From NCBI GenBank assembly GCA_011389515.1, contig JAABUA010000008.1, forward strand, positions 1 through 64,000: DNA of 64,000 bases. Direction: 5' to 3'. The stretch comes from Desulfobacteraceae bacterium (GTDB taxonomy: Bacteria > Desulfobacterota > Desulfobacteria > Desulfobacterales > Desulfosalsimonadaceae). This document shows positions 9,115 to 59,421 of this stretch, piece by piece (within the stretch, counting starts at the first letter, position 1; the number at the start of each line of letters is the position of its first letter). Below the pieces are notes generated by a model. It did no database searches. It was not told where the DNA came from and saw nothing but the letters and a program-made list of their open reading frames with translations. Position numbers and translations under genes: made by a program.

Positions 9115-9792
9115 TCAAGCGGGTTTTTTCGGCGTCATGATGTGAATGACCACCTGTTTTTTTTCGTCGCCCATGGTCATCGATTTCCCGGTATGCGCAA
9201 TCTCGAAATACCTACCGGCTTCCGCCAGAAAATCGATCATGGAGAGGCGCTTGATGTCGTGGGCGAGATAAACGGTCCCCTCGGGTTTTATGCTTTTCCG
9301 GACGGCATTCATCGCCGGCTGTATGTCTGCTTGCCGGTAAACCAGTTCGGCACCGCAGACGATATCAAAAGTGCCCGGTGATTCAAAATGGTTCCAGTCC
9401 AGTTGCCGGACAGTCACCGACGTAAGCCCGTTTCTTTCCGCGTTTTTTTCCAAAAGCGCCAGGGCATCCGGGTTATAATCCGTCAAGGTCACCGGATGGC
9501 CGGAGGCCGCAAGAAACAACCCTACAACCCCCATGCCGGCACCCAACTCAAGAACGGTTCGGTTTTTGTCCAGGTTCTGTTCGGCAAGGTATGCTGCCAG
9601 AATAATGTCGGATTCCCATATCTTGATCCAGTATGGAAACGACGCAAGGGCCGTTTTATCTTTTTCCTCCAATTCAAGAAGAAGGGGTTCGATGTTTTTA
9701 ACGGTAAGCAGCTCGAGCGTATTGTCGCCGATACGGATCGGGCTGGCATCGAGCGGCAGTCTGTTCAGTATAAAAGCGTCGTTCATTTTCAT
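9115..9792 (-). CDS. SAM-dependent methyltransferase (small-molecule or protein-lysine type)
   Basis: 225 residues. Motif I is VLELGAGMGVVGL (about residues 79-91), followed by VTLTDYNPDAL (acidic motif II) and FDIVCGAELVYR. The layout resembles the Methyltransf_16/METTL group that methylates protein lysines. The start codon overlaps the stop of the Crp/Fnr gene by a few bases, so the two are translationally coupled. Target unknown; cotranscription with the regulator is the best clue. Confidence 0.82.
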   Translation of the reverse strand: MKMNDAFILNRLPLDASPIRIGDNTLELLTVKNIEPLLLELEEKDKTALASFPYWIKIWESDIILAAYLAEQNLDKNRTVLELGAGMGVVGLFLAASGHPVTLTDYNPDALALLEKNAERNGLTSVTVRQLDWNHFESPGTFDIVCGAELVYRQADIQPAMNAVRKSIKPEGTVYLAHDIKRLSMIDFLAEAGRYFEIAHTGKSMTMGDEKKQVVIHIMTPKKPA

Positions 9793-10484
9793 TCCTCGGT
9801 ATGTATTCTGCCGGTTTCGGCAAGATCAATCAAGCCGTCATAGTCTTTCAGGCGGATCCTTCTTCCCTCGACTTCGATCAGTTCCTGATCGCTCATTTTT
9901 TTGAGCATCCGCGACAGGGTTTCCGGAATCGTTCCTAAAAACCCGGCAAGCTGCCCCTTGGAAATGTTTAGGGTTACGGATTTGCTGTTCTTCTGTTCTT
10001 CGGATAACAGGAGAAAATAGCCTGCAAGGCGCGCTGGTACTTCCTTGAGCGAAAGGTTCTCCACCTGGATGGTGAAATGGCGCAGCCGCTTGGAAAGGAT
10101 CGCCAGCATGTTCAATGCCAGGGTTGGTTTTTCAATCAGCAATTCCACAAATTTTTTCCGGGGGAAATACAGGACCGTGCTGTTTTTTATCGCTTCCGCA
10201 TTTGCGGGAAACACGCCGCCGGAAAAAACCGGAACTTCACCAAAGGGCTCTCCGGGTCCGAACATGTGGAGAATCTGCTCCTTGCCGTTTGGAGAAAGTT
10301 TGTGGATTTTCACCATCCCGTCCGCTACCATGTAAAATCCGTCTGCCGGGTCTCCCTCGAAAAAAATGATTTCGCCGGTATTTATTGGTTTCTCAACGGC
10401 AATGGAGAGTACGGCATCCATCTGCTCTTCGGGCAGTTCGCCGAAAAGGACGGATTGGCTGAGAAGCGGCAGGTATTGTTTCAT
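9789..10484 (-). CDS. Crp/Fnr family regulator, HcpR-like candidate
   Basis: About 231 residues from the start MKQYLPLLSQ, chosen because AGGA lies 8 bases upstream; an ATG two codons earlier is also possible. Much longer in-frame extensions lack family similarity. The cyclic-nucleotide-type sensor domain (GEIIFFEGDPADGFYMVADGMVKIHK, FGPGEPFGEVPVFSGG) is followed by a dimer helix and a Crp-type helix-turn-helix (ISKGQLAGFLGTIPETLSRML). There is no N-terminal FNR-type cysteine set, so an Fe-S sensor is unlikely. The TTGAC-N4-GTCAA palindrome at 10570 lies upstream, and the same palindrome precedes hcp, which suggests an HcpR-like nitrosative-stress regulator. That identity is inferred. Confidence 0.85.
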   Translation of the reverse strand: MKQYLPLLSQSVLFGELPEEQMDAVLSIAVEKPINTGEIIFFEGDPADGFYMVADGMVKIHKLSPNGKEQILHMFGPGEPFGEVPVFSGGVFPANAEAIKNSTVLYFPRKKFVELLIEKPTLALNMLAILSKRLRHFTIQVENLSLKEVPARLAGYFLLLSEEQKNSKSVTLNISKGQLAGFLGTIPETLSRMLKKMSDQELIEVEGRRIRLKDYDGLIDLAETGRIHTEE

Positions 10485-10516
10485 CGACATTGTCCTGTAA
10501 ATGCAATTATGGGGGT

Positions 10517-10569: not shown

Positions 10570-10583
10570 TTGACGCAAGTCAA
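10570..10583. promoter_or_regulatory. Candidate HcpR-type operator (TTGAC-N4-GTCAA)
   Basis: TTGACGCAAGTCAA has perfect 5-bp arms and lies between the regulator (minus) and the siroheme-ferredoxin fusion (plus). On the minus strand its right arm also reads TTGACT, which could be the -35 of a promoter whose TATAAA (10562-10557) lies 15 bases on, so binding there would allow autoregulation. A third TTGAC follows at 10587. The same palindrome is found upstream of hcp at 57684. Confidence 0.65.
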
Positions 10584-10638
10584 GCAATTGACGATACTAA
10601 TATGGTACAGGTTGGCATAAATGGAAAGGAATGCTTTT

Positions 10639-11484
10639 ATGAAATGGGAAGAAGCCGCCGATGCTTTGATAAAGCGGATGCCGGTTGACAGCCGTCGGAA
10701 AGTGAAGTCCCGTGCGGAAGCCGCTGCCTTGAAAGCCGGAAAAAATATTGTGACCATGGCGGATGTGGAAGATTTCTGCAAAGCATCTACTGGCAGCGTT
10801 TCGCATGAATCAATCGGTTTCCGCTTGGATGCTTGTTCCGGCAACGGCGTATGCTCCAACCGGGCGCACGGGACCGGCAATGATACTATCAATCAACTAT
10901 TTGAAAAAATACGGGATCTTCTTGAGAAGGAAGACCTGGGGGATTTTCTGAAAAAGCCGGTAAACGGGCCGCTGCGTCCCCATCATGTGTTCCGGGTCTC
11001 CCTGTCGGATTGCCCCAATGCGTGCTCCCAGCCGCAGATCAAGGACATCGGTATTCTTGCCGCGGCTGTCCCTATGCTTACCGAAAAGGCGTGCATCCTG
11101 TGCGGGTCGTGTGAAAATGCCTGCCGGGAAAGTGCCGTTTGCGTGGATACGGAACGGGAGATTCCGGTTATCGACAAGGAGCGGTGCATTTCATGCGGAA
11201 GCTGCATCACGGTGTGCCCCACCGGTGCAATCGCTGCGGAAGTTTGCGGCTACCGGGTGATGATCGGCGGCAAATTGGGGAGGCATCCCCGGTTGGCAAA
11301 TGAACTGCAAGGTATCCATGACGTGGAAACCGTACTTTTTATCATTAAGTGGTGCGTTGACGTATACAGGGTAAAGAGCCGCCGCGGAAAGCGGTTTGCG
11401 GAGATCGTCGCCCAGGAGAAAAAATCCATTTTATCAAATTTGGAGCAGGCGCTTCAAAAAAATAACACGAAAAAAAGGAGATGA
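10639..11484 (+). CDS. PCP reductase family protein: siroheme-type cluster domain fused to a 2[4Fe-4S] ferredoxin
   Basis: 281 residues from ATG 10639, which has AAAGGA 8 bases upstream; the ATG 18 bases earlier has no such site. Residues 1-48 (WEEAADALIKRMPVDSRR, then VTMADVEDF) resemble the PCP_red domain at the end of protochlorophyllide reductase B subunits. Cys66/Cys72 (CSGNGVC) and Cys125/Cys129 (CPNAC before SQPQIKDIG) match the C-x5-C and C-x3-C ligands of nitrite/sulfite reductases. Two ferredoxin motifs follow (C152-155-158-162 and C183-186-189-193). It is much shorter than a full sulfite reductase, so an electron-transfer or one-domain reductase role is likely. Divergent from the Crp/Fnr gene with the shared operator between. 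Confidence 0.85.
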   Translation: MKWEEAADALIKRMPVDSRRKVKSRAEAAALKAGKNIVTMADVEDFCKASTGSVSHESIGFRLDACSGNGVCSNRAHGTGNDTINQLFEKIRDLLEKEDLGDFLKKPVNGPLRPHHVFRVSLSDCPNACSQPQIKDIGILAAAVPMLTEKACILCGSCENACRESAVCVDTEREIPVIDKERCISCGSCITVCPTGAIAAEVCGYRVMIGGKLGRHPRLANELQGIHDVETVLFIIKWCVDVYRVKSRRGKRFAEIVAQEKKSILSNLEQALQKNNTKKRR

Positions 11485-20356: not shown

Positions 20357-22759
20357 ATGGTTAATGTCATATCCCAGATCATCACCGATGAAGAACACCG
20401 GGATTTTGCGGATTTCATGTATCGCCTGTTTACCGAGGAGGGCAAATTTTTTCTCAGGAATGATGTATGGCTCAAGTGGCGCCAATGGTGCCGCGAGCAT
20501 GAAAAACCTTCAGGCGTCATGGAAAACTCGAAGACAGCCGGATTTCTGAGAAAAGTCAACGAACTGTTGATCATCGACAATCTTGCATTGATCATGCACC
20601 GCCATGAACGGGGAAAGATCCGTTTATACCGGATGAACAGAAGCTGCGACTATCTGCAGGAAATCAGCATCAGCCGGTATCTCGACTACAAGGACGCATA
20701 CGTTATAGGGAATAAGCCTTCGGCAAACCGCGATACCCTTGAAATTGATTTCATGCCGTTTTACGATTATTCGCCCAATGTGCGAACCGTCAAAAACGTG
20801 GGCAAGGGGGTCAGCTTTTTAAACAAGCACCTGTCTTCAAGGATGTTCCAGAAGGCGGACGAATGGGGGAATAAGCTGTTTGATTTCATAAAGCTGCACA
20901 GGATAAACGGCCAGCAGCTGCTGGTGAACCAGGCAATTCTTCAAAACCGGGATGATTGTCTGGATGCCCTCGAAAAGACCATCCAGATGCTTGAAAAAGA
21001 GGACCCGGAAACACCTTATGTACAAATCGAGCGGGAAATGAAGCTGAACGGATTCGAGCCGGGCTGGGGGTATAATGTTCAGCGGATCACGGAAACCATG
21101 GAGCTGCTCAAGGGGCTTTTTTACGAGCCCAGGAGTGGTGCCCTCGAGGAATTCATTTCGCGGGTGCCGATGATTTCCAAGGTCGCCATATTATCGCCGC
21201 ACGGCTGGTTTGGCCAGGAAAACGTACTGGGCAAACCGGACACGGGGGGGCAGGTGATCTATATATTGGACCAGGTGCGCGCCCTGGAAAAGTACCTTGT
21301 TTCTGAGTATGAAATGGCGGGCATCGATGTCACACCTAAAATTATCGTTCTTACCCGGCTCATACCCAACGCCGGCAATACGAGTTGCAATCAGCCCAAA
21401 GAGGATATCATCGGGACGGAGTATTCCTATATTCTGAGGATTCCGTTTTATGATGACGGAGGCAATGTCATCCAGGACTGGATCTCAAGATTCAAAATAT
21501 GGCCTTATCTGGATCGGTTTGCCGAAGATTGCGAAAATGAGCTGCTGGCGAAGCTGAGCGGCCGGCCAGACCTTATTGTCGGTAATTATTCCGATGGAAA
21601 CCTGGTGGCCACCCTGTTGTCGGACCGCCTCAAGGTTATCCAGTGCACCATTGCGCACGCGCTGGAAAAGACGAAGTACCTGTTTTCCGATCTTTACTGG
21701 GAAAATATGGAGCAGGATTATCATTTTTCCTGCCAGTACACGGCAGATCTCCTTTCCATGAACCGGTCGGATTTTATTATAACCAGCACGTACCAGGAGA
21801 TCGCCGGCACCGATGACCGGATGGGACAATATGAGTCCTATCAGTATTACACAATGCCGGGACTCTACCAGGTAATAAACGGCATCAACCTGTTTTCCCC
21901 GAAGTTCAATGTGGTTCCCCCGGGAGTCGACGAGGTCAATTATTTTCCGTATTACGATGTCGACAAGCGGACGGACAGCAGGACCCGGTATTGGGAAGAG
22001 CGCATTTTTCACGATCAGGAAGAGGATATACATGGATACCTGGAGGATCCGGAAAAACCGCCTGTGTTTACAATGGCCAGGCTTGACAGGATCAAGAATA
22101 TCACGGGGCTCGTAGAAGCGTTCGGCATGGACCCGGAACTCCGAAAGCACTGCAACCTGGTCGTGGCCGCCGGTACCATTCGCATGGAGGAATCCGAAGA
22201 CGTTGAAGAAAGAAATGAAATCGAAAAAATGTATTCCCTGATTGAAAAATATCAGCTCAAAGGGAGTATCCGCTGGCTGCCGTCCGTTCCCAAGCAGGAA
22301 ACCGGATCGGTATACCGCATTATCGCGGACAAGGGCGGCATGTTTGTCCAGCCCGCACTTTTCGAAGCTTTCGGGCTTACGGTACTGGAGGCGATGCAGT
22401 GCGGACTACCCACATTCGGACCGATATTCGGGGGGCCGTCCGAGATCATCATTAACAAAAAAAGCGGATACCTGATGAATACAAGCAGACCGGAAATGAT
22501 GGCGGGAGACATCATGGAATTTATTGCAAAATGTGAAAAAGACCCTGAACACTGGAAAATGATTTCCGAAAACGGTATAAAGCGGGTCAGGGAAAATTTT
22601 ACCTGGGCCCGCTACAGCGACAAGCTGATCCGGCTGACAAAGCTTTACGGATTCTGGCGATTTGCAGAATCAGAGGAAGGGATGGTAAGAATGAATCGCT
22701 ATTGCGACCTATTGTACCACCTTTTTTTAAAACCGAGGGCCAGGGCCATTTTAGGATAG
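20357..22759 (+). CDS. Sucrose synthase
   Basis: 800 residues, the length of plant and bacterial sucrose synthases. An N-terminal regulatory region of about 270 residues precedes the GT-B part (SPHGWFGQENVLGKPDTGGQVIYILDQVRALE). The donor site has the E-x7-E pattern in EAFGLTVLEAMQCGLPTFGP. It interconverts sucrose plus nucleoside diphosphate with NDP-glucose plus fructose. AAAGGAG lies 7 bases before the ATG. No sucrose-phosphate synthase, phosphatase or transporter is nearby. The 172-bp gap upstream shows no clear promoter or riboswitch. Confidence 0.93.
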   Translation: MVNVISQIITDEEHRDFADFMYRLFTEEGKFFLRNDVWLKWRQWCREHEKPSGVMENSKTAGFLRKVNELLIIDNLALIMHRHERGKIRLYRMNRSCDYLQEISISRYLDYKDAYVIGNKPSANRDTLEIDFMPFYDYSPNVRTVKNVGKGVSFLNKHLSSRMFQKADEWGNKLFDFIKLHRINGQQLLVNQAILQNRDDCLDALEKTIQMLEKEDPETPYVQIEREMKLNGFEPGWGYNVQRITETMELLKGLFYEPRSGALEEFISRVPMISKVAILSPHGWFGQENVLGKPDTGGQVIYILDQVRALEKYLVSEYEMAGIDVTPKIIVLTRLIPNAGNTSCNQPKEDIIGTEYSYILRIPFYDDGGNVIQDWISRFKIWPYLDRFAEDCENELLAKLSGRPDLIVGNYSDGNLVATLLSDRLKVIQCTIAHALEKTKYLFSDLYWENMEQDYHFSCQYTADLLSMNRSDFIITSTYQEIAGTDDRMGQYESYQYYTMPGLYQVINGINLFSPKFNVVPPGVDEVNYFPYYDVDKRTDSRTRYWEERIFHDQEEDIHGYLEDPEKPPVFTMARLDRIKNITGLVEAFGMDPELRKHCNLVVAAGTIRMEESEDVEERNEIEKMYSLIEKYQLKGSIRWLPSVPKQETGSVYRIIADKGGMFVQPALFEAFGLTVLEAMQCGLPTFGPIFGGPSEIIINKKSGYLMNTSRPEMMAGDIMEFIAKCEKDPEHWKMISENGIKRVRENFTWARYSDKLIRLTKLYGFWRFAESEEGMVRMNRYCDLLYHLFLKPRARAILG

Positions 22760-24490: not shown

Positions 24491-27400
24491 CTACTGCAGG
24501 GAATATCGATTGACGACCTGGCGGATTCTTTCGTCCGGATCTTTTTTTAGGCGCTGCATGAGCGCGTTGGCTTTTTCACCGGGAAGCTGAGCCAATGCAA
24601 AGGCTGCGGCCACGCGAACGGAGGCATCGTATTTTTTCCGGCGGAAAAGGCGGCGTTTTGGAATCAGAATTTCCGCAAGAGGCGAAATGAAAACCGCGTC
24701 ACCCGTCTGTCCCATTGCCCGGCTGCATGCGATGAGAATTTCAGAATTACCGGACTCCTTCATAATGATTGATAGCGTTTCTGCAAGAAATCCAGGCTTC
24801 TGCTTTACCAGTGTATGGATGGCTGGAAGGGCCAACCGGGCATCCCCGCTTTTGGCGGCATTGTTTGCCAGGGCCAGGGCCTCGGGCGTCCTGAGCCGCT
24901 CAATGAGCTTGAATGCGCTGCGCCTGACATTTTCTTCCGGGTCGGAAAGCGCATGCGCCAGCTCGTGTTCCAGCTCAACCGTCACTGTATCGATGATATC
25001 TAATATCCGTGATTTTTGCTCCGGACGCAGCGCATTGGTGATGTTTTTTTTCAGAATATTCCCGCCCGGTTTTCCATGCTTCTGGAGTAATCCCGCGGCA
25101 AGATGCCGTGTCCGAAGCTCTTTTGATTCCATTATGACATCGATGAGAAAGGGAATCATGCAGGCGCCCATGCTGCTGACAAGCTGGGCGGCGTCCTGCT
25201 GCCGCAAACGATCACCCGATTGCAGATCTTCGGCGATTGCATCTCTTACCCTGGGATCGAGTGTTCTGCCGAATACCTGTATCTCTGCGGAATTTCCAGC
25301 AATATCCTCCGCTCTGCTGCGGTTCGGGAATGCAGCTGCAAACCGGGAGGCCATTTTGGTATGTATCCAGGAGGCAAAGGTATATTCACCGAACAAGATA
25401 AACGTTGTGGTGCATTCATGGCACAGGTCAAGGAGCTTTTTCAAGATGGCTTCATCTTCTTCGGATTCCAGCAGCGTGATGACATGATTTGCGATCAGTT
25501 TGATATAGGCGCTGCTGGGTTGCCAATCTTCCGGAAACAAGGCCTTGCGGAAGGTTTTTACAAGTTTCAGTTTGCTGTTGCTGCCGGCATTCAGGTACGT
25601 TTCGACCGCCTTGTGCAGGATCGTTTCAAGACCCTTGATATCGCCTTTCAGGTATAATTCTTTGGCCTTTGTCGGCATATCGATGCGGTCAAATTCATAT
25701 TCTGTTTTTTCATTGCCCGTTTCTGCTTCGTCCTTTTTCAGCGACTCCTTTTCTTCGCCTGTTTCCGCGGGGATGATGTCATAGATGCTCTGGTTGAAAA
25801 GAATGTTGTTGATCTGTTTTTGTGCGGCCAGTTTCTGCCAGAAATCCGGACCTGCCGATTCCGCCGGCATACGGCATGCGGCGAGGATAAAATCGACGAT
25901 CTCATTTGCGCTGATTCCGCCTGTAAAGGAAAGACTGTTCAATCCGGTTTCCGTTAGCATTTTCAAAAAGCCGTCCGCCAGGCTTTCAAAGTCACGGGTA
26001 TCGATTTTTATCCCGTTAACGAGAAGCCTGTTATCGATCCGGGCAACCGTGAAAACCGGCCATGTTTTCAGAAATGCATTCAAATGCGTGACGACCTGAA
26101 AAACGGCTTTTGTGGCCACCTGGCCGCGGGACGGATAGAGTTTTATTTTGTTAAAAGCGGACAGGAGGGAGCTGATAATGAGTTGTATGGCTTTTTTCTC
26201 TTCGGTGCTGAACTGGTGACCGATTTCCGCTTCCAATGGCTCGATGCGATCTTCCGGCATGATCCCGGCCACGTTTTCAATCGGTTTTTGTCCGGGTTCG
26301 ATTTTTGCGTACCTCACCTGAATTGGAATAATATTGCCAAGGTTGTTTTCCTCGGCAAATCGTATCCAGAATTTGGGTGTGACCGCTTTTTTTCCTACGG
26401 TGCTGATCTGTTTCACAACGGCAAGGAGCTCATTTTCGGTAACGCCTCTTTTTATGGTGAGGCATTTTAATTCCAGGCGGTTCCAGAGCTCGACGATTTT
26501 TGCGGCCACTGCCGGAAGGGACATGGTGTCCAACGGTTGTGAATTGATCAGCAGTATGTTTTTTTCCACAATGATACTGAAACACTCGTTTGTGTTAAGG
26601 ATTTCCCGCACAAGCCCGGTCAGCCTTCCGGTCATGATTGTCACGGATTTGCTTTTTTCCGGATATAGGCGGAAATTTCTTACGGAAACAACAAGGGCAT
26701 GAAGCATTTCCGGGACCATTTCAAGCCCCTTTTCCGAGAGGGCTTTATCGGCAATTTCCTGCTCCCTGCCGGCGCCTTCTTCCTCCGCGCCGCTTTCTTC
26801 CTCGAAAGGATTTTCTTTATAGACCTCTTTATTGTACCGGGCCATCAACTGGTCGTATGTATTGGCTTTTTCAAGGTTGCCGGACTGCTTGAAATGGTAT
26901 GCAAGGTGAGAGGCGGAGGGGAGCACGTTCTGAAAGTATAGTTTTTCATGGTAACGGCCGATTTCTTCGTGCAGTTTTTTCCTTTCGTCCTCCCCGATTC
27001 TCTCATAGATCACTTCCCGCACAAACTTGTTCGAAAAGCGGATATTTTCATCATCATCACTGTATTCGTGACGCATAAGCCCGTTATCTACGGCTTCCTT
27101 GATGATTTCATACACCTGGTATGATTCCTGTTTTGTAAAACCTTCAAGCATGCTGAGCGAACACGATTCCCCGAAAGCGGATACCCTGTCAATGAATTCT
27201 TTGTTCCGGCTGTCCAGACTGTCCAGTTTCTCCCGGATAATCTGTTCAAACGATCCCGGGAAATATCCGGTTTCAAGCTCTCCTACGGTCCATCGGTTTT
27301 CAGACTGCAGAATTTTCCGGTCTTCAATCATTTTAATAATGATCGCAACGAGAAACAGGGGATTTCCTCCGGTAACGCGAGCGAGTTCATCGGCAAGGCT

Positions 27401-28696
27401 TTCCGGGAGATGGATGCCGGGGAAAATGAGGTTGATGTATTTTGTTATGTCCACCGGCACCAGCGGATTCAGGTATATGTTTTTTATATCAAGGCGTTCA
27501 CTGTATGCCGTTCGAAACAGGGAAAGCGGAATGGCGTGTGAATGCTCCTTTTCTCCGCTGGAAGCCGCTGCACAGATGAATAAGGAGGATTCCCCCCTGG
27601 TCATCAACGCATGGAGAATATCAAGGGAAGCCGGATCGGCCAGGTCGAAGTCATCTATAAGCAATACAAGGGTCTGGTTTTCAGCCAGCTTTGACAAAAA
27701 TCGATTGATTGCATTGAATACGGTTTTGGGTTTGTCCGGAAAATCACCCGGTACGATTTGTATCTTTTCATCCGCCAGTTGGGGGATGATATGCAAAAGG
27801 CAGGCGAGGTCTTCTTTGCTGGTGGATTCAATAATGGTAATGCCCTTGTCTTCGCGCCGGTTCATCAACGCGATGATGGCGTAAGAAATAAGATAATAGG
27901 GGCGGAATGATTCCTGGATGATGCCGTTGACCCGGATCGGTTGTAAACGTGTTTTTTCAAGATTTCGTTTGACGGCGTCGATAAAGCTGGTCTTTCCCAT
28001 GCCGGGAGCGCCGTCGACAATGAAGAATTGATTCTTTCCCCTGGCCAGGTCTCTGAAGCCGGCGCTGACAATATCGAAATGGAATTTGCGGCCCACGATG
28101 CCGGCACTGTGAATATAGCGGATCGCCAGGCGGTCGACGTCCGAGGCATCAACAATGCTGCCCCCCCCTTTTTTCCTCGCATGGAAAAGAGCGGTGTCCG
28201 CCCGGTCGATCAGCAGTTTTCCGTAGTCGGCATCATCGGGCGCACAAGCAGCGCCGATAACCATGGATACCGGTATTGGTTTGCCCGCTTCGGAAGAGAA
28301 AAAAGGATTTTCCCGGAACGCTGAAATCAAAGACGCTGCTGTTGCAATGCCTTCCTGCTTGTCTTTTCCGGGGAGGAGCATGATGAATTCGCCGACGCCA
28401 TATCGCACGAGCAGATCTTTTTCCATTGCCAGCGGCTTCATTATTCCCGATATGTGAACGATGATCTCGTCGCCCACATTCCGGCCGTATTTTCGGTTGA
28501 TCCTCTCCAGGTCGTCTATGCCGACCATCAAAAGGCAAAGGGGATGGTGAGGACGATTTTGCCGGTCGATGTCATTTTCGAAAAACTGAAACAAGCGGCG
28601 TCTGTTGCCGAAACCGGTGAGTTCATCCTCAAATACGAGCGTATCAGGATCTTTTCCGAAATTTTGAAGAAAATGGAGAAGTTTCCGGTATTTCAT
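24491..28696 (-). CDS. Giant signalling protein: degenerate GGDEF, AAA/STAND ATPase, duplicated unnamed domain, HEAT repeats
   Basis: 1401 residues. Residues 20-180 are a diguanylate-cyclase-type domain (DELTGFGNRR) whose active motif reads GVGEF (100-104) instead of GGDEF, so it is probably inactive. Residues 205-600 are an AAA_16/STAND NTPase with Walker A GAPGMGKTS (229-237) and Walker B LVLLIDDF (343-350). Two copies of an unnamed domain follow: LYP at 677-679 and 853-855, each with LLINS/LLVNG 38 residues on and a G-(V/I)-(T/S)-x-N-E turn 74 residues on. HEAT-like helical repeats fill about 1150-1400. The last helices end in RIRQVVNRYSLQ. There is no transmembrane segment, so it is cytoplasmic. 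Own promoter at 28821-28849. Confidence 0.85.
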   Translation of the reverse strand: MKYRKLLHFLQNFGKDPDTLVFEDELTGFGNRRRLFQFFENDIDRQNRPHHPLCLLMVGIDDLERINRKYGRNVGDEIIVHISGIMKPLAMEKDLLVRYGVGEFIMLLPGKDKQEGIATAASLISAFRENPFFSSEAGKPIPVSMVIGAACAPDDADYGKLLIDRADTALFHARKKGGGSIVDASDVDRLAIRYIHSAGIVGRKFHFDIVSAGFRDLARGKNQFFIVDGAPGMGKTSFIDAVKRNLEKTRLQPIRVNGIIQESFRPYYLISYAIIALMNRREDKGITIIESTSKEDLACLLHIIPQLADEKIQIVPGDFPDKPKTVFNAINRFLSKLAENQTLVLLIDDFDLADPASLDILHALMTRGESSLFICAAASSGEKEHSHAIPLSLFRTAYSERLDIKNIYLNPLVPVDITKYINLIFPGIHLPESLADELARVTGGNPLFLVAIIIKMIEDRKILQSENRWTVGELETGYFPGSFEQIIREKLDSLDSRNKEFIDRVSAFGESCSLSMLEGFTKQESYQVYEIIKEAVDNGLMRHEYSDDDENIRFSNKFVREVIYERIGEDERKKLHEEIGRYHEKLYFQNVLPSASHLAYHFKQSGNLEKANTYDQLMARYNKEVYKENPFEEESGAEEEGAGREQEIADKALSEKGLEMVPEMLHALVVSVRNFRLYPEKSKSVTIMTGRLTGLVREILNTNECFSIIVEKNILLINSQPLDTMSLPAVAAKIVELWNRLELKCLTIKRGVTENELLAVVKQISTVGKKAVTPKFWIRFAEENNLGNIIPIQVRYAKIEPGQKPIENVAGIMPEDRIEPLEAEIGHQFSTEEKKAIQLIISSLLSAFNKIKLYPSRGQVATKAVFQVVTHLNAFLKTWPVFTVARIDNRLLVNGIKIDTRDFESLADGFLKMLTETGLNSLSFTGGISANEIVDFILAACRMPAESAGPDFWQKLAAQKQINNILFNQSIYDIIPAETGEEKESLKKDEAETGNEKTEYEFDRIDMPTKAKELYLKGDIKGLETILHKAVETYLNAGSNSKLKLVKTFRKALFPEDWQPSSAYIKLIANHVITLLESEEDEAILKKLLDLCHECTTTFILFGEYTFASWIHTKMASRFAAAFPNRSRAEDIAGNSAEIQVFGRTLDPRVRDAIAEDLQSGDRLRQQDAAQLVSSMGACMIPFLIDVIMESKELRTRHLAAGLLQKHGKPGGNILKKNITNALRPEQKSRILDIIDTVTVELEHELAHALSDPEENVRRSAFKLIERLRTPEALALANNAAKSGDARLALPAIHTLVKQKPGFLAETLSIIMKESGNSEILIACSRAMGQTGDAVFISPLAEILIPKRRLFRRKKYDASVRVAAAFALAQLPGEKANALMQRLKKDPDERIRQVVNRYSLQ

Positions 28697-52909: not shown

Positions 52910-54091
52910 ATGATTTGCCATGTGGATATGGATGCATTTTTTGCATCGGTCGAGCAGATGGACGAGCCTTCTCTTGCCGGCAAGTGTGTGATCATTGGCG
53001 GTATTTCGGATCGGGGTGTTGTCGCGGCCGCAAGCTATGAAGCAAGGCAATACGGGGTGCGCTCCGCCATGCCGGTTTATATGGCGAAGAAGCTTTGCCC
53101 CGGGGGCGTTTTTCTTTATCCCCGCCGGCAGCGATATAAACAATTGTCCGGCATGGTCATGGAGGTGCTCGGCACGTTTTCACCGGTGTTGGAGCAGGTG
53201 TCCATTGACGAGGCATATCTGGACCTTGCCGGATGCGAGGGGCTTTTTGGCTCCTACGGGAGCATCGGTGCGGCGGTCAAGCAAAAGATAAGGCAGCAAG
53301 TCGGGCTGAACTGTTCTGTTGGCATCGCCCCCCTGAAATTTCTGGCCAAAATCGCCTCCGACATGAACAAGCCGGATGGCCTGCGCGTGGTCCTGCCGGA
53401 AGAAGTGCCGGATTTTATCAACGCGCTGCCCGTCTCAAAGGTGCCGGGGGTCGGCCCTGTAACCGGAAAAACCCTGGAAAAGATGGGCATTCGTTTTCTG
53501 GGCGATGCCGGAAAATACCGTGCAAAAGACCTTGCGGCGCGCCTTGGTCGCTTTGGCTACCGCCTCCACGATCTCTCCGTTGGCATCGACCGCAGCCCCG
53601 TGGTACCGGTCCGTCCCGTCAAATCCATCAGCAGCGAGGAAACCCTGACATCCGATACCATGGATATGGCTGTTCTGGAGAGGCTCATGCTGAAGCATGC
53701 ACAAGACGTGGGGCGCCAGGCCCGGAAAAAGGGAGTCCTTGCAAAAACGGTGTTTATAAAGCTCAAGGACAGAGATTTTCGGCAGATCACCCGGCAGGCC
53801 CCGCTGCCGGAACCCACCCAGTCGGCCGAAATGATATACCGGGCCGGACAGGAGCTGCTTGCGGCCTGCCGGCTGCAAAAACCGGTTCGCCTTGCCGGGC
53901 TCGGCGTATCCGACCTTCTGCACCGGCAGACTCCGGTGCAGATGCCCCTGTTTGAAGAAACGGGTACTGCAATGAATAAGTGGGCGCAGGTGGACGAAGC
54001 CGTGGATGCCATTGCAGACCGCTTCGGCCCGGACGCCGTTCGAAAGGCGCGGCTCTGCGATTCCAAAAAGAACCCCATACAGGATCAATGA
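52910..54091 (+). CDS. dinB: DNA polymerase IV (Y family)
   Basis: 393 residues. The active site shows HVDMDAFFASVEQ (Asp6, Asp8) and VSIDEAYLDL (Asp-Glu), with a helix-hairpin-helix in VSKVPGVGPVTGKTLEKMG. The C-terminus has a beta-clamp-like motif (QMPLFE). Translesion polymerase. No LexA-type box is evident upstream. The sulfatase start overlaps the stop (ATGA). Confidence 0.94.
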   Translation: MICHVDMDAFFASVEQMDEPSLAGKCVIIGGISDRGVVAAASYEARQYGVRSAMPVYMAKKLCPGGVFLYPRRQRYKQLSGMVMEVLGTFSPVLEQVSIDEAYLDLAGCEGLFGSYGSIGAAVKQKIRQQVGLNCSVGIAPLKFLAKIASDMNKPDGLRVVLPEEVPDFINALPVSKVPGVGPVTGKTLEKMGIRFLGDAGKYRAKDLAARLGRFGYRLHDLSVGIDRSPVVPVRPVKSISSEETLTSDTMDMAVLERLMLKHAQDVGRQARKKGVLAKTVFIKLKDRDFRQITRQAPLPEPTQSAEMIYRAGQELLAACRLQKPVRLAGLGVSDLLHRQTPVQMPLFEETGTAMNKWAQVDEAVDAIADRFGPDAVRKARLCDSKKNPIQDQ

Positions 54092-55683
54092 AAGGGAAAA
54101 AAGCCATGACAGAAAGGCGCTGGACCCGGAAAAGAATCGTTTCAGCCAGCTTCGTCCTTATTCTTGCCCTTTTTTTTCTTCTGGGTGCATTGAAACTTCT
54201 CAAACGGAAGGATATCGACGACCTGTACGGGGCGTATCCGGATGAGGCGGACCTGAAGGATCCGGCCCTTGTTGACGTCAATGCCCCGAAGCCCAATGTC
54301 ATCATTGTCTATCTGGATGACCTGGGATACGGAGACCTGGGCTGCTTTGGCAGCGAGGCGATTCAAACGCCGAATATCGACAAAATGGCCGATGAAGGGG
54401 CAATGTTCACCAATTACCATTCCGTGGCCTCGGTGTGCGCCCCGTCGCGGGCCGGCCTCCTTACCGGCCGCTATCCCTTCCGAACCGGTGTGATCGGTAA
54501 CCCCTACCCGGCGGACGAACCTTTTGTGAACAAGGCGCAGAAAAAAGCGGCAAACCTCCTTTTGGAGATGGGCGTTGCGGACCTGGACGAAGCATACGTC
54601 GCGGAAGGCCTTTCCCAAAAGGAAATCACCATTGCCAAAGCCCTCAAGACCGCCGGCTACCGGACAAAAATGATCGGGAAGTGGCATTTGGGCGACTATG
54701 GCAAAAAGGCGTACTACAACCCCGTCAATTACGGGTTTGATTCCTATTTTGGGGTTCCGTACAGCAATGACATGATTCCCTATCCCTTGTATCGGAACAA
54801 AGAGGAGTTGATTGCCAATGTCGCCGGCGAAGCGCAGTCCATGCTGACCGGGTCGTTTACGGATGAAGCCATCGAATTTATAAAAGAATCAAGGGGGGAG
54901 CCTTTTTTTCTTTACCTTGCCCATGCGTTTCCCCACCAGCCTCTGTATGCCTCAGAAGGTTTTCAACGGGTATCAAAAGGGGGGGTGTACGGAGACGTGG
55001 TGGAGGAGATTGACTGGAATATGGGTCGAATCCTCGATTTCCTGGAGGAAAACGGACTGGATGAGGACACGCTTATCGTGCTGACCAGCGACAACGGCCC
55101 TTGGTACGAGGGGAGCGCCGGCGGCTTCCGGGGGAGAAAAGGCGAGGTTTACAGCGGCGGTTTCCGGGTTCCCTTTATCGCCCGGTATCCCGGGAAAATA
55201 CCCGGGGGGCTGGTCATGGACACGGCGATTGCCAGCATCGACCTGTTCCCGACCATCCTGACCCTGGCCGGGGTCGGGATTCCGGAGGACCGGACCATAG
55301 ACGGCAGGGACGTTTTTGACAACCTTACGGGGGCTTCGGCAAAATCGCCCCATGACGCCCTGTATTTTTACCATTACACGGAATTGCAGGGAATCCTTTC
55401 CGGCGGGTTCAAATACGTGAAAAGAATGAATCGCTACACGTGGCCGGTGCCGCTGACCACGGCGTACATCCCCATGGAGGTGTTCAAGGCAAAGGTCGCT
55501 TTGGGAGACATTTTTCCGCTGCTCTATGATATGGCGCTGGATCCCGGGGAAGCGTATAACGTGATCCAGACGTACCCCGACATTGCAGAAGGGCATGCCC
55601 GGATGATGAGGGAGTGGGAAGCGCGCGTGGCAGAAAACCCGCGGGGGTTTGGGGCTGCAGCGCAAAAGAGGGCGGTGAAATAA
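54088..55683 (+). CDS. Cys-type sulfatase, membrane-anchored or exported
   Basis: 531 residues from ATG 54088; ATG 54106 is an alternative. An N-terminal hydrophobic segment (about 18-37) anchors or exports it. Alkaline-phosphatase fold with metal Asp77/Asp78 (VYLDDLGYGD) and the sulfatase signature VCAPSRAGLLTGR, where Cys117 would become formylglycine. The GKWHLGDYG motif follows. The next gene encodes the matching anaerobic maturase. The substrate, a sulfate ester, is unknown; perhaps sulfated polysaccharide. Confidence 0.94.
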   Translation: MKGKKAMTERRWTRKRIVSASFVLILALFFLLGALKLLKRKDIDDLYGAYPDEADLKDPALVDVNAPKPNVIIVYLDDLGYGDLGCFGSEAIQTPNIDKMADEGAMFTNYHSVASVCAPSRAGLLTGRYPFRTGVIGNPYPADEPFVNKAQKKAANLLLEMGVADLDEAYVAEGLSQKEITIAKALKTAGYRTKMIGKWHLGDYGKKAYYNPVNYGFDSYFGVPYSNDMIPYPLYRNKEELIANVAGEAQSMLTGSFTDEAIEFIKESRGEPFFLYLAHAFPHQPLYASEGFQRVSKGGVYGDVVEEIDWNMGRILDFLEENGLDEDTLIVLTSDNGPWYEGSAGGFRGRKGEVYSGGFRVPFIARYPGKIPGGLVMDTAIASIDLFPTILTLAGVGIPEDRTIDGRDVFDNLTGASAKSPHDALYFYHYTELQGILSGGFKYVKRMNRYTWPVPLTTAYIPMEVFKAKVALGDIFPLLYDMALDPGEAYNVIQTYPDIAEGHARMMREWEARVAENPRGFGAAAQKRAVK

Positions 55684-56937
55684 ATGGATGCGGATTTTTC
55701 CCCGGCGTTTCATATCATGGCAAAGCCCATCGGGCCCGTGTGCAACCTGAATTGCACATACTGCTACTATATTGAAAAGCATGCCCTTTTCGGGCATAAG
55801 AAAAATTTCCGGATGTCCGGGCGGGTGCTCGAAGAATTTATTAAAAAATATATCACCACCCAGGATATACCGGAAATCGCCTTTATCTGGCAAGGGGGGG
55901 AGCCCACCCTGCTTGGCATCGATTTCTTCAAAAACGTCGTGTCGCTGCAGAGGAAATATGCCGCGGGAAAAACCGTAACCAATGCCATTCAAACCAACGG
56001 AACGCTGCTTACCAACGAGTGGTGCTCGTTTTTTGCGGAAAACCGTTTTCTGGTGGGACTGAGTATTGATGGGCCCGAAGAGATTCATGACCGGTACCGG
56101 GTGGACAAGGCGGGAAACGGGACCTTTAACCGGGTCTATAGCGGTTTGCAGCTGCTTCAGAAACATTATGTGGAGGTCAATGCGCTCACGTGCATAACAA
56201 GGGAAAGCGCCACTCACCCGCTGGAGATTTACCGGTTTCTGAAGGAGGCGGGGATAGGGTTTATCCAGTTTATTCCGATTGTGGAAAGAGTTGCCGACAA
56301 GGCCGCAATTGACCTTGGATTGAAGCTTTCCGGGCCGCCAGAAGTAGACGATGAAACATCATCTGCAGAAACGACGCCCTGGAGTGTCGCACCGGAAGCC
56401 TACGGCGATTTTTTAATTCAGGTGTTTGACCAATGGGTGCGAAGCGATGTGGGGACGGTGTTTATCATGAATTTTGAAGCCTGGCTGGGTGCCTGGATGG
56501 GGTTGGAGGCCGCCACCTGCGTAAATGCAAAAGAGTGCGGAAGAAGTCTGGTTATGGAGCATAACGGCGATATTTACGCATGCGACCACTTTGTTTATCC
56601 GGACAGGCGCCTTGGAAACATCCTAAACGACATGCCCCATGAATTGATCAGAACAAGCAGGCAGACCGGATTCGGGAGCCGCAAGCAAAGTGCGCTTCCC
56701 ACGGTCTGCCGCAATTGCGATGTCTTGTTTGCCTGCAGGGGGGAATGCCCCAAGCACCGATTCTGCAAAACCAAAGAGGGGGAGCCGGGGCTCAATTATC
56801 TGTGCAAGGGATATAAAAAGGTTTTTACCCATATAGACAAGTACATGAAGACGATGGCCCTACTTTTGAACAAGGGGTATCCTGCAGAAAAGGTCATGGA
56901 TGCCATTAAGGGGCCTATCGCCTTATATCCATACTGA
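55684..56937 (+). CDS. Anaerobic sulfatase maturase (radical SAM, SPASM)
   Basis: 417 residues, starting right after the sulfatase stop. Radical-SAM motif Cys20-x3-Cys24-x2-Cys27 (VCNLNCTYCYY), GGEPTLLG, and SPASM cysteines near the C-terminus (CVNAKECG, ACDHF, CRNCDVLFACRGECP) for two extra [4Fe-4S] clusters. It oxidises the sulfatase active-site Cys or Ser to formylglycine without oxygen. Tight coupling with the Cys-type sulfatase makes a complete two-gene module. Confidence 0.95.
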   Translation: MDADFSPAFHIMAKPIGPVCNLNCTYCYYIEKHALFGHKKNFRMSGRVLEEFIKKYITTQDIPEIAFIWQGGEPTLLGIDFFKNVVSLQRKYAAGKTVTNAIQTNGTLLTNEWCSFFAENRFLVGLSIDGPEEIHDRYRVDKAGNGTFNRVYSGLQLLQKHYVEVNALTCITRESATHPLEIYRFLKEAGIGFIQFIPIVERVADKAAIDLGLKLSGPPEVDDETSSAETTPWSVAPEAYGDFLIQVFDQWVRSDVGTVFIMNFEAWLGAWMGLEAATCVNAKECGRSLVMEHNGDIYACDHFVYPDRRLGNILNDMPHELIRTSRQTGFGSRKQSALPTVCRNCDVLFACRGECPKHRFCKTKEGEPGLNYLCKGYKKVFTHIDKYMKTMALLLNKGYPAEKVMDAIKGPIALYPY

Positions 56938-57675: not shown

Positions 57676-57683
57676 TGGATATC

Positions 57684-57697
57684 TTGACCTAAGTCAA
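57684..57697. promoter_or_regulatory. Candidate HcpR-type operator of hcp (TTGAC-N4-GTCAA)
   Basis: TTGACCTAAGTCAA, extended to perfect 6-bp arms CTTGAC/GTCAAG (57683-57698). It lies 92 bases upstream of the hcp start codon. If transcription starts near 57732, where a weak TACATA -10 would fit, the centre is about -41.5, the standard position for Crp/Fnr class II activation. The same palindrome lies beside the Crp/Fnr gene at 10570. Confidence 0.7.
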
Positions 57698-57789
57698 GGT
57701 TTCCATCTCTCATCCGGGATACATACAGGACAAAACTGTGAGCGCATTTTTTCACGAAAGGTAAAAAACAACCAAAAAGGAGGTATTCC

Positions 57790-59421
57790 ATGTTTTGTTT
57801 TCAATGCGAACAAACGGCAAAAGGTGAAGGCTGCACCAAGATCGGTGTATGCGGCAAGCAGTCCGATGTGGCCGAGCTTCAGGATGTTCTGGTGTACGCG
57901 GCCAAGGGGCTGGCCCAGGTAGCCAACGAAGGCCGGAAAGTGGGTGTAAGGGATCCGGCAATCGACCATTTTATGTGCGAAGCCATGTTCGCCACCCTGA
58001 CCAACGTGGATTTTGATCCGGACCGCTTTGTCGAGCTCATCCATACATGCGTGGATCACCGGGAAAAACTCAAGAAAAAAGTGGAAGAAGCAGGCGGCTG
58101 GACCGATTATACCACCGGACCGGCCACGTTCACCCCGGCAAAAACCATTGACGAGCTTGTCGCCCAAGGGGAAAGTTTCGGACCCGAGGCGGAAAAAGAC
58201 AAGGTGGCCCAGGATATTCTTTCCTTGAAAGAGACCCTCACATACGGCATCAAGGGGGTGTGTTCCTATGCGGACCACGCGGCCATCCTGGGCAAAACCG
58301 ATGATACGATTTTTGATTTCGTCCACGAAGGGTTGGCCGCCACTCTGGACGACAGCCTGGGTATTGATGATTTGCTGGGGCTCGTGCTCAAGTGCGGCGA
58401 GATCAACCTCAGAACCATGGAACTGCTGGATGAAGCCAATACCGGCACTTATGGCAACCCGGTCCCCACCGAGGTGCCCCTCGGCGCCAAACAAGGAAAG
58501 GCGCTTCTGGTTTCCGGTCATGACCTCAAAGACCTGGAGCAGATCCTGAAGCAGACCGAAGGCAAGGGGATCAATGTCTATACCCACGGAGAGATGCTCC
58601 CCTGCCATGGGTATCCGGAATTGAAAAAATACCCGCATTTTTACGGTCACTACGGCACGGCATGGCAGAACCAGAAAAAGGAGTTTGCTGAATTTCCCGG
58701 TGCCATTGTTATGACCACCAACTGCATCCAGAAGCCCCAGGAATCCTACCAGGACAATATTTTCACCACCGGACTTGTGGGGTGGCCGGACGTCACGCAC
58801 ATCGCGGACAAGAATTTTACACCGGCCATTGAAAAAGCGCTTGCCCTGCCGGGTTTTGATGCGGATACCGACAAGGGTACGGTCATGGTGGGATTTGGCC
58901 ATAACGCGGTCCTGGGTGTTGCCGGCAAGGTTATCGAGGGCGTCAAAAACAAGGATATCCGGCATTTTTTTCTGGTGGCCGGGTGCGACGGCGCCAAGCC
59001 GGGGCGAAACTATTACACCGAGTTCGTGGAAAAGGTGCCTGAAGACTGTATCGTAATGACCCTGGCCTGCGGTAAGTTCCGCTTTTTCGACAAGAAGCTG
59101 GGCGATATCGGCGGCATCCCGCGCCTGCTGGATATCGGCCAGTGCAACGATGCCTATTCAGCCATCAAGATCGCGTCGGCCCTGGCGGATGCCTTTAACG
59201 TCGGCGTCAACGACCTGCCACTTTCCATGGTGCTGTCCTGGTATGAGCAGAAGGCCGTGGCGATCCTGCTGACCCTGCTGTATTTGGGAATCACGGACAT
59301 GCGGCTTGGGCCCAGCCTGCCGGCTTTTATTTCGCCGAACGTGCTTGGCGTGCTGGTGGATAAGTTCGATATCAAACCCATCAGCACGCCGGATGAAGAT
59401 CTGAAGGCAATTCTGGGATAG
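57790..59421 (+). CDS. hcp: Hybrid cluster protein (hydroxylamine / nitric-oxide reductase)
   Basis: 543 residues. N-terminal cubane ligands Cys3, Cys6, Cys15 and Cys21 (CFQCEQ, GCTKIGVCGK), the spacing of the strict-anaerobe class. Hybrid-cluster segments are present: HGEMLPCHGYPEL, TTNCIQKP, VAGCDGAKPGRNYY, LACGKFRFF and IGQCNDAYSA. It reduces hydroxylamine in vitro and nitric oxide in vivo in studied bacteria. AGGAGG lies 6 bases before the ATG. No frdX-type ferredoxin gene follows; the siroheme-ferredoxin fusion at 10639 may share its regulation. A hairpin terminator follows. Confidence 0.97.
   Translation: MFCFQCEQTAKGEGCTKIGVCGKQSDVAELQDVLVYAAKGLAQVANEGRKVGVRDPAIDHFMCEAMFATLTNVDFDPDRFVELIHTCVDHREKLKKKVEEAGGWTDYTTGPATFTPAKTIDELVAQGESFGPEAEKDKVAQDILSLKETLTYGIKGVCSYADHAAILGKTDDTIFDFVHEGLAATLDDSLGIDDLLGLVLKCGEINLRTMELLDEANTGTYGNPVPTEVPLGAKQGKALLVSGHDLKDLEQILKQTEGKGINVYTHGEMLPCHGYPELKKYPHFYGHYGTAWQNQKKEFAEFPGAIVMTTNCIQKPQESYQDNIFTTGLVGWPDVTHIADKNFTPAIEKALALPGFDADTDKGTVMVGFGHNAVLGVAGKVIEGVKNKDIRHFFLVAGCDGAKPGRNYYTEFVEKVPEDCIVMTLACGKFRFFDKKLGDIGGIPRLLDIGQCNDAYSAIKIASALADAFNVGVNDLPLSMVLSWYEQKAVAILLTLLYLGITDMRLGPSLPAFISPNVLGVLVDKFDIKPISTPDEDLKAILG

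Follow-up and report, generated by a model that had tools for sequence, protein, structure and literature searches.

A predicted HcpR regulator and its TTGAC-type operator at hcp in a Desulfobacteraceae genome

We analyzed a 64,000-nucleotide stretch of Desulfobacteraceae DNA (hereafter the window) and propose with strong confidence that the gene at 9789-10490 encodes HcpR of the TTGAC-binding HcpR1 type, a class-II activator of hcp at -41.5, and that a scattered regulon shares the same operator and geometry. The operator sites, their conservation, the promoter geometry, the co-occurrence and the single candidate regulator were all computed. We infer a mechanism in which NO or nitrite stress would activate HcpR, with heme as the NO sensor by analogy with HcpR and DNR; the HcpR dimer would physically bind TTGAC-N4-GTCAA and recruit RNA polymerase from the class-II activator position, -41.5, activating rather than repressing, and hcp, the ferredoxin operon and the flavodiiron protein would then be expressed. 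The scattered regulon would include an HD-domain/FrdX-like ferredoxin pair (HD-FrdX), and a cupin-flavodiiron pair; an RND efflux operon next to nrfHA is a probable member and a siroheme-ferredoxin fusion gene a possible one.

The earlier note had reported perfect palindromes at 57684 and 10570. Both 14-mers were recovered exactly there, TTGACCTAAGTCAA at 57684-57697 upstream of hcp and TTGACGCAAGTCAA at 10570-10583 in the gap separating the Crp/Fnr gene from the siroheme-ferredoxin fusion gene; at both sites the 5-bp arms are perfect inverted repeats, whereas the 4-bp spacers are asymmetric. The window contains no other exact TTGAC-N4-GTCAA, and 0.062 would be expected under a Markov-1 model of the window (probability of two or more, about 0.002). 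The genome (3.24 Mb in 156 contigs, 92% complete, 13% non-coding) yielded seven exact matches compared to one for the reversed control pattern. The earlier note had proposed comparing palindromes inside and outside genes, and gene calling around each site showed them to be concentrated outside: six of the seven are intergenic, against 0.4 expected at 13% non-coding. Five of these lie upstream of hcp, the cupin-flavodiiron pair, the HD-domain/FrdX-like ferredoxin pair, the RND efflux operon (which adjoins UspA and nrfHA) and a moeA-like gene, and the remaining one lies between the Crp/Fnr gene and the fusion gene. The seventh palindrome (C78:12271) falls within a large MMPL/RND-type membrane protein gene. 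The site before the moeA-like gene (C91:25860) is a doubtful HcpR operator; its spacer is different, the downstream TA described below is shifted by one base, and the locus gave no Rfam match. When one mismatch was allowed, sites with the -10 geometry were as frequent in the genome as for the reversed control (14 vs 14), and those inspected had no convincing target. Spacer variant palindromes, TTGACAACTGTCAA, were met repeatedly in relatives G002, G003 and G045 and may represent a different element from the HcpR operator.

The identity of hcp (57790-59421, plus strand) as a hybrid cluster protein gene of the hydroxylamine reductase family was confirmed by PF03063 (3e-175) and by scores over the cut-offs of TIGR01703 and PRK05290. 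The earlier note had asked whether the palindrome is kept upstream of hcp orthologues, and it is: among 30 hcp genes with readable upstream DNA (that of the window and 29 orthologues), the predicted HcpR site was exact in 22 and had at most one mismatch in 28, mostly 86-130 bp from the start codon, while none of 59 half-site-permuted control palindromes occurred exactly even once upstream of hcp. The two hcp genes that lack the palindrome belong to near-complete genomes in which the regulator is absent (G040 and G050). The palindrome was also present in most regulator-bearing genomes upstream of a more distant hcp subtype. In a tally made by hand, with the regulator-lacking group restricted to genomes at least 90% complete, a site upstream of an hcp gene was found in 32/35 regulator-bearing and 0/3 regulator-lacking genomes (Fisher P 0.002); less complete genomes with no regulator match, several of which carry a site, were excluded post hoc as the gene is possibly missing from them. 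In three regulator-bearing genomes (G036, G055 and G056) the regions read contained no hcp site at one mismatch or fewer, which counts against the proposal.

We considered the explanation that the palindromes match by chance. About 3.1 exact matches would be expected genome-wide, one of the seven is intragenic, and an ordinary -35 box could account for the site before the moeA-like gene, all of which would suit this explanation. Against it stand the conserved palindrome in 28/30 hcp promoters, with no control palindrome recovered, and the invariant -10 spacing, which together exclude a chance origin of the hcp site and reduce chance as a general account to a negligible probability.

That spacing emerged from the 28 hcp upstream regions aligned on the palindrome. 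The flanks were mostly weakly conserved, except for a TA located 29-30 bases to the right of the center in 28/28 promoters (57720-57721 in the window) and a second conserved element, Y-A-A-A, 40-43 bases from the center. Reading the TA as positions -12/-11 of a -10 hexamer, here TACATA at 57720-57725 on the plus strand, places the center of the palindrome at -41.5, in agreement with the earlier note, and predicts from the spacing a transcription start at 57732-57733, near the conserved Y-A-A-A. The same TA was found in 26/28 HD-FrdX promoters, compared to 4/56 regulator-side flanks and 0/8 flanks on the opposite (MYDKK) side of HD-FrdX operators, which served as internal controls for the spacing; because these promoters are related to one another, individual P values exaggerate their independence, and the contrast with the control sides weighs more. 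Exactly five loci in the genome combine the palindrome with a TA at such spacing, against 0.21 expected, namely hcp, HD-FrdX, cupin-flavodiiron, RND and the fusion gene.

The geometry bears on the possibility that the protein binds the hcp operator as a repressor inactivated by NO, as in the HcpR2 repressor model proposed for Desulfovibrio desulfuricans (PMC5701242). A center at -41.5 that leaves the predicted -10 free of overlap, at a spacing fixed in these hcp and HD-FrdX promoters, is the position of a class-II activator, and the D. desulfuricans model invoked an Fe-S cluster, whereas the window protein is cysteine-free. We therefore regard repression as improbable and retain activation as the preferred reading.

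The regulator itself is a protein of 233 aa encoded on the minus strand, with a cNMP-type sensor beta-barrel (PF00027, 1e-24) and a Crp helix-turn-helix (PF13545, 1e-16). The earlier note had given 9789 as the position of a Crp/Fnr gene; the identity was right, but 9789 is the stop end and the start codon is at 10490 or 10484. Its assignment to HcpR is upheld by three observations: it is the only protein in the genome over the PF13545 cut-off, its orthologues lie divergently beside hcp, and its recognition helix is of the TTGAC type. One weak partial PF13545 match elsewhere in the genome is below the cut-off, and the remaining PF00027 matches are proteins with no PF13545 match. The protein reached no NCBIfam model cut-off; its scores were 67 bits for CRP (PRK11753, cut-off 266) and 73 bits for FNR (PRK11161, cut-off 228), and none of its 233 residues is a cysteine, so that the FNR-type motif of cluster-binding cysteines is absent. 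The nearest solved structure by sequence is that of Pseudomonas DNR (3dkw; E 5e-40), and resemblance to Crp/Fnr proteins of solved structure is enough to establish the fold. The recognition helix, GTIPETLSR, was invariant across the relatives examined, and its T-I-P-E-T-L-S-R segment carries Pro180/Glu181 (CRP numbering assigned by eye), the published TTGAC-binding signature. We rejected NsrR as an alternative regulator, as no Rrf2/NsrR protein was found in the genome.

HcpR, the motif it recognizes and its connection with hcp have been known since 2004-2005 (Rodionov 2004, PMC545781; Rodionov 2005, PMC1274295). In HcpR proteins of non-Desulfovibrio delta-proteobacteria, the residue at CRP position 180 was reported to be Ser or Pro and the motif wyTTGACnnnnGTCAArw, while those of Desulfovibrio have Arg180 and the motif TGTGA-N6-TCACA (PMC545781, PMC1274295). 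In the window protein this residue is Pro, not Arg, and the hcp operator is TTGAC-type, not TGTGA-type, which sets it apart from Desulfovibrio-type HcpR. Judged by the published descriptions of HcpR1 proteins, the window protein fits an HcpR-type regulator of the HcpR1 branch. Its regulon shares with the HcpR1 regulons known from Desulfotalea psychrophila, Desulfuromonas and Geobacter a Crp/Fnr regulator with Ser or Pro at 180, that motif, and hcp and ferredoxin (frdX) as core targets. It differs in its layout, with hcpR, hcp and the ferredoxin operon lying apart from one another, in the HD-domain gene at the head of that operon, and in the sites at the cupin-flavodiiron pair and the RND operon. 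The HcpR/HcpR1 regulons of D. vulgaris and D. desulfuricans are likewise those of sulfate reducers with control of hcp and ferredoxin, and there too the regulon or its surroundings include a UspA gene together with a gene resembling sulfite/nitrite reductase. Pseudomonas DNR, a heme-based NO sensor, belongs to the same superfamily and has a similar DNA site, but it controls denitrification genes and is a distant relative whose heme ligands are not transferable to the window protein. HcpR2 forms a separate branch of the Crp/Fnr proteins, with the operator GTAACnnnnGTTAC in most members; it includes the HcpR of Porphyromonas gingivalis, which activates hcp on NO via heme, with Met68 as a heme residue (PMC12750200). 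The regulon seen from the window is a further case of the known HcpR kind, with a dispersed layout, a sharp geometry and some unstudied members.

Among 60 genomes searched (59 relatives and the window's own), 50 had a match to the regulator, and the orthologues formed a group at 45-85% identity with a clear gap to paralogues at 25-31%. The orthologue is divergent from hcp in six genomes belonging to other families (G037, G038, G043, G044, G045 and G049). Within 4 kb on each side of the regulator, 80 named genome loci contained hcp in 20, the HD-domain gene in 27 and the FrdX-like ferredoxin gene in 26, and a palindrome with at most one mismatch was located upstream of the regulator in 41/80. 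Orthologues thus co-localize with hcp and/or frdX; in the window genome, hcp is 47 kb from the regulator, a point against the link. Since the orthologue neighborhoods hold hcp and HD-FrdX, the window genome looks like a dispersed version of an hcpR/hcp/HD-FrdX cluster. At one locus (L151 2683-3489), an hcp-like frame near a contig end contains two in-frame stops and continues without a frame change into a flavodiiron protein, in the manner of a pseudogene or a misassembly.

A rival explanation keeps the operator but has another Crp/Fnr-type protein, FNR- or DNR-like and missing from the assembly, control hcp and leaves the window regulator to act only on itself and its neighbor. TTGAC-N4-GTCAA also resembles the consensus sites of FNR and DNR (PMC1274295), an assembly at 92% completeness may lack a second Crp/Fnr gene, and some relatives do encode second Crp/Fnr paralogues, those at 25-31% identity. 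We consider this arrangement quite unlikely, given that one protein in the genome exceeds the PF13545 cut-off, that it is the orthologue of the window protein, and no paralogue, that lies divergent from hcp across a shared palindrome, and that near-complete genomes with no regulator also have no hcp site. Control of hcp by the window's own HcpR remains the favored explanation.

The earlier note had read the 10570 site as an operator shared with hcp. The exact site and its conservation near the regulator gene bore this out, but the -41.5 fit toward the fusion gene is not conserved. The fusion gene encodes a PCP_red/siroheme/2[4Fe-4S] ferredoxin fusion (PF08369, PF01077, Fer4) with complete siroheme motifs (C-x5-C and C-x3-C), and among solved structures it comes closest to F420-dependent sulfite reductase, in the C-terminal part of that enzyme (2e-22). 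Its start had been placed at 10621; most alignments to homologues set in only at residue 7, which makes ATG 10639 the most likely start, giving a gene at 10639-11484 on the plus strand. The operator is 86 bp from the earliest candidate start codon of the regulator and 62 bp from this likely fusion start, and the TA at 10606-10607, within a possible -10 (TACAGG, 10606-10611, plus strand), fits -41.5 toward the fusion gene in the window. This fit was seen in 2/10 loci with the site and is absent in the nearest relative, while a palindrome close to the start of the regulator gene is conserved more widely; the conserved role of the 10570 site is therefore most likely regulation of hcpR itself, and its location suggests autoregulation. 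The hcpR side is AT-rich with no clear conserved -10 element, and for this reason we do not claim autorepression.

Whether the 10570 operator serves hcpR autoregulation only, with the fusion gene no target, is to our judgment an even question, and either answer is compatible with HcpR as the activator of hcp. The sparse conservation of the fusion-side fit and the wider retention of the palindrome near the regulator favor autoregulation alone. The exact geometry on the fusion side in the window genome, the position of the fusion gene after the HD-FrdX operon at L164 and L166, and the predicted control of a sulfite/nitrite reductase-like and polyferredoxin operon by Desulfovibrio HcpR (PMC545781) point the other way, and activation of the fusion gene by HcpR in the window genome is possible.

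The uncharacterized HD-domain protein (L016 5157-5885) is encoded by the conserved first gene of the FrdX-like ferredoxin operon at many Desulfobacterales loci. For the flavodiiron protein of the cupin pair, the best NCBIfam match was the anaerobic NO reductase flavorubredoxin, below the cut-off, and by its site and geometry the cupin-flavodiiron (NO reductase-like) operon is a likely HcpR target. The RND efflux operon beside nrfHA is probably also one. We rejected nrfHA as a direct target in the window genome, as the nrfH-UspA intergenic region had no site at fewer than four mismatches; the relative G053 has an exact site upstream of an nrfH-like gene. It is about equally plausible as not that a single HcpR across the Desulfobacterales governs a compact nitrosative-stress regulon of rigid -41.5 geometry, whose conserved core includes the HD-domain protein encoded in front of the FrdX-like ferredoxin, joined in certain lineages by the PCP_red-siroheme-ferredoxin fusion. 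If true, the HD-domain protein and the fusion would be unrecognized parts of NO defense.

The results provide a well-founded predicted HcpR regulon for uncultured Desulfobacteraceae-type sulfate reducers, the cited literature being mainly on Desulfovibrio. With the spacing between operator and -10 element fixed, a motif match becomes a precise promoter prediction; this spacing sorts likely direct targets (hcp, HD-FrdX and cupin-flavodiiron) from bystanders, and it marks uncharacterized redox and HD-domain proteins as candidate parts of NO defense.

Other genes in the window include a sulfatase gene with the Cys-type active-site motif CAPSR, followed directly by a radical SAM protein gene (53980-56937) whose product is probably the anaerobic maturase of the sulfatase. 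A sucrose synthase is encoded at 20357-22759 in this sulfate reducer. The protein of 1401 aa encoded at 24491-28696 combines GGDEF and AAA ATPase domains with about 1000 other residues that have no Pfam match at 1e-8.
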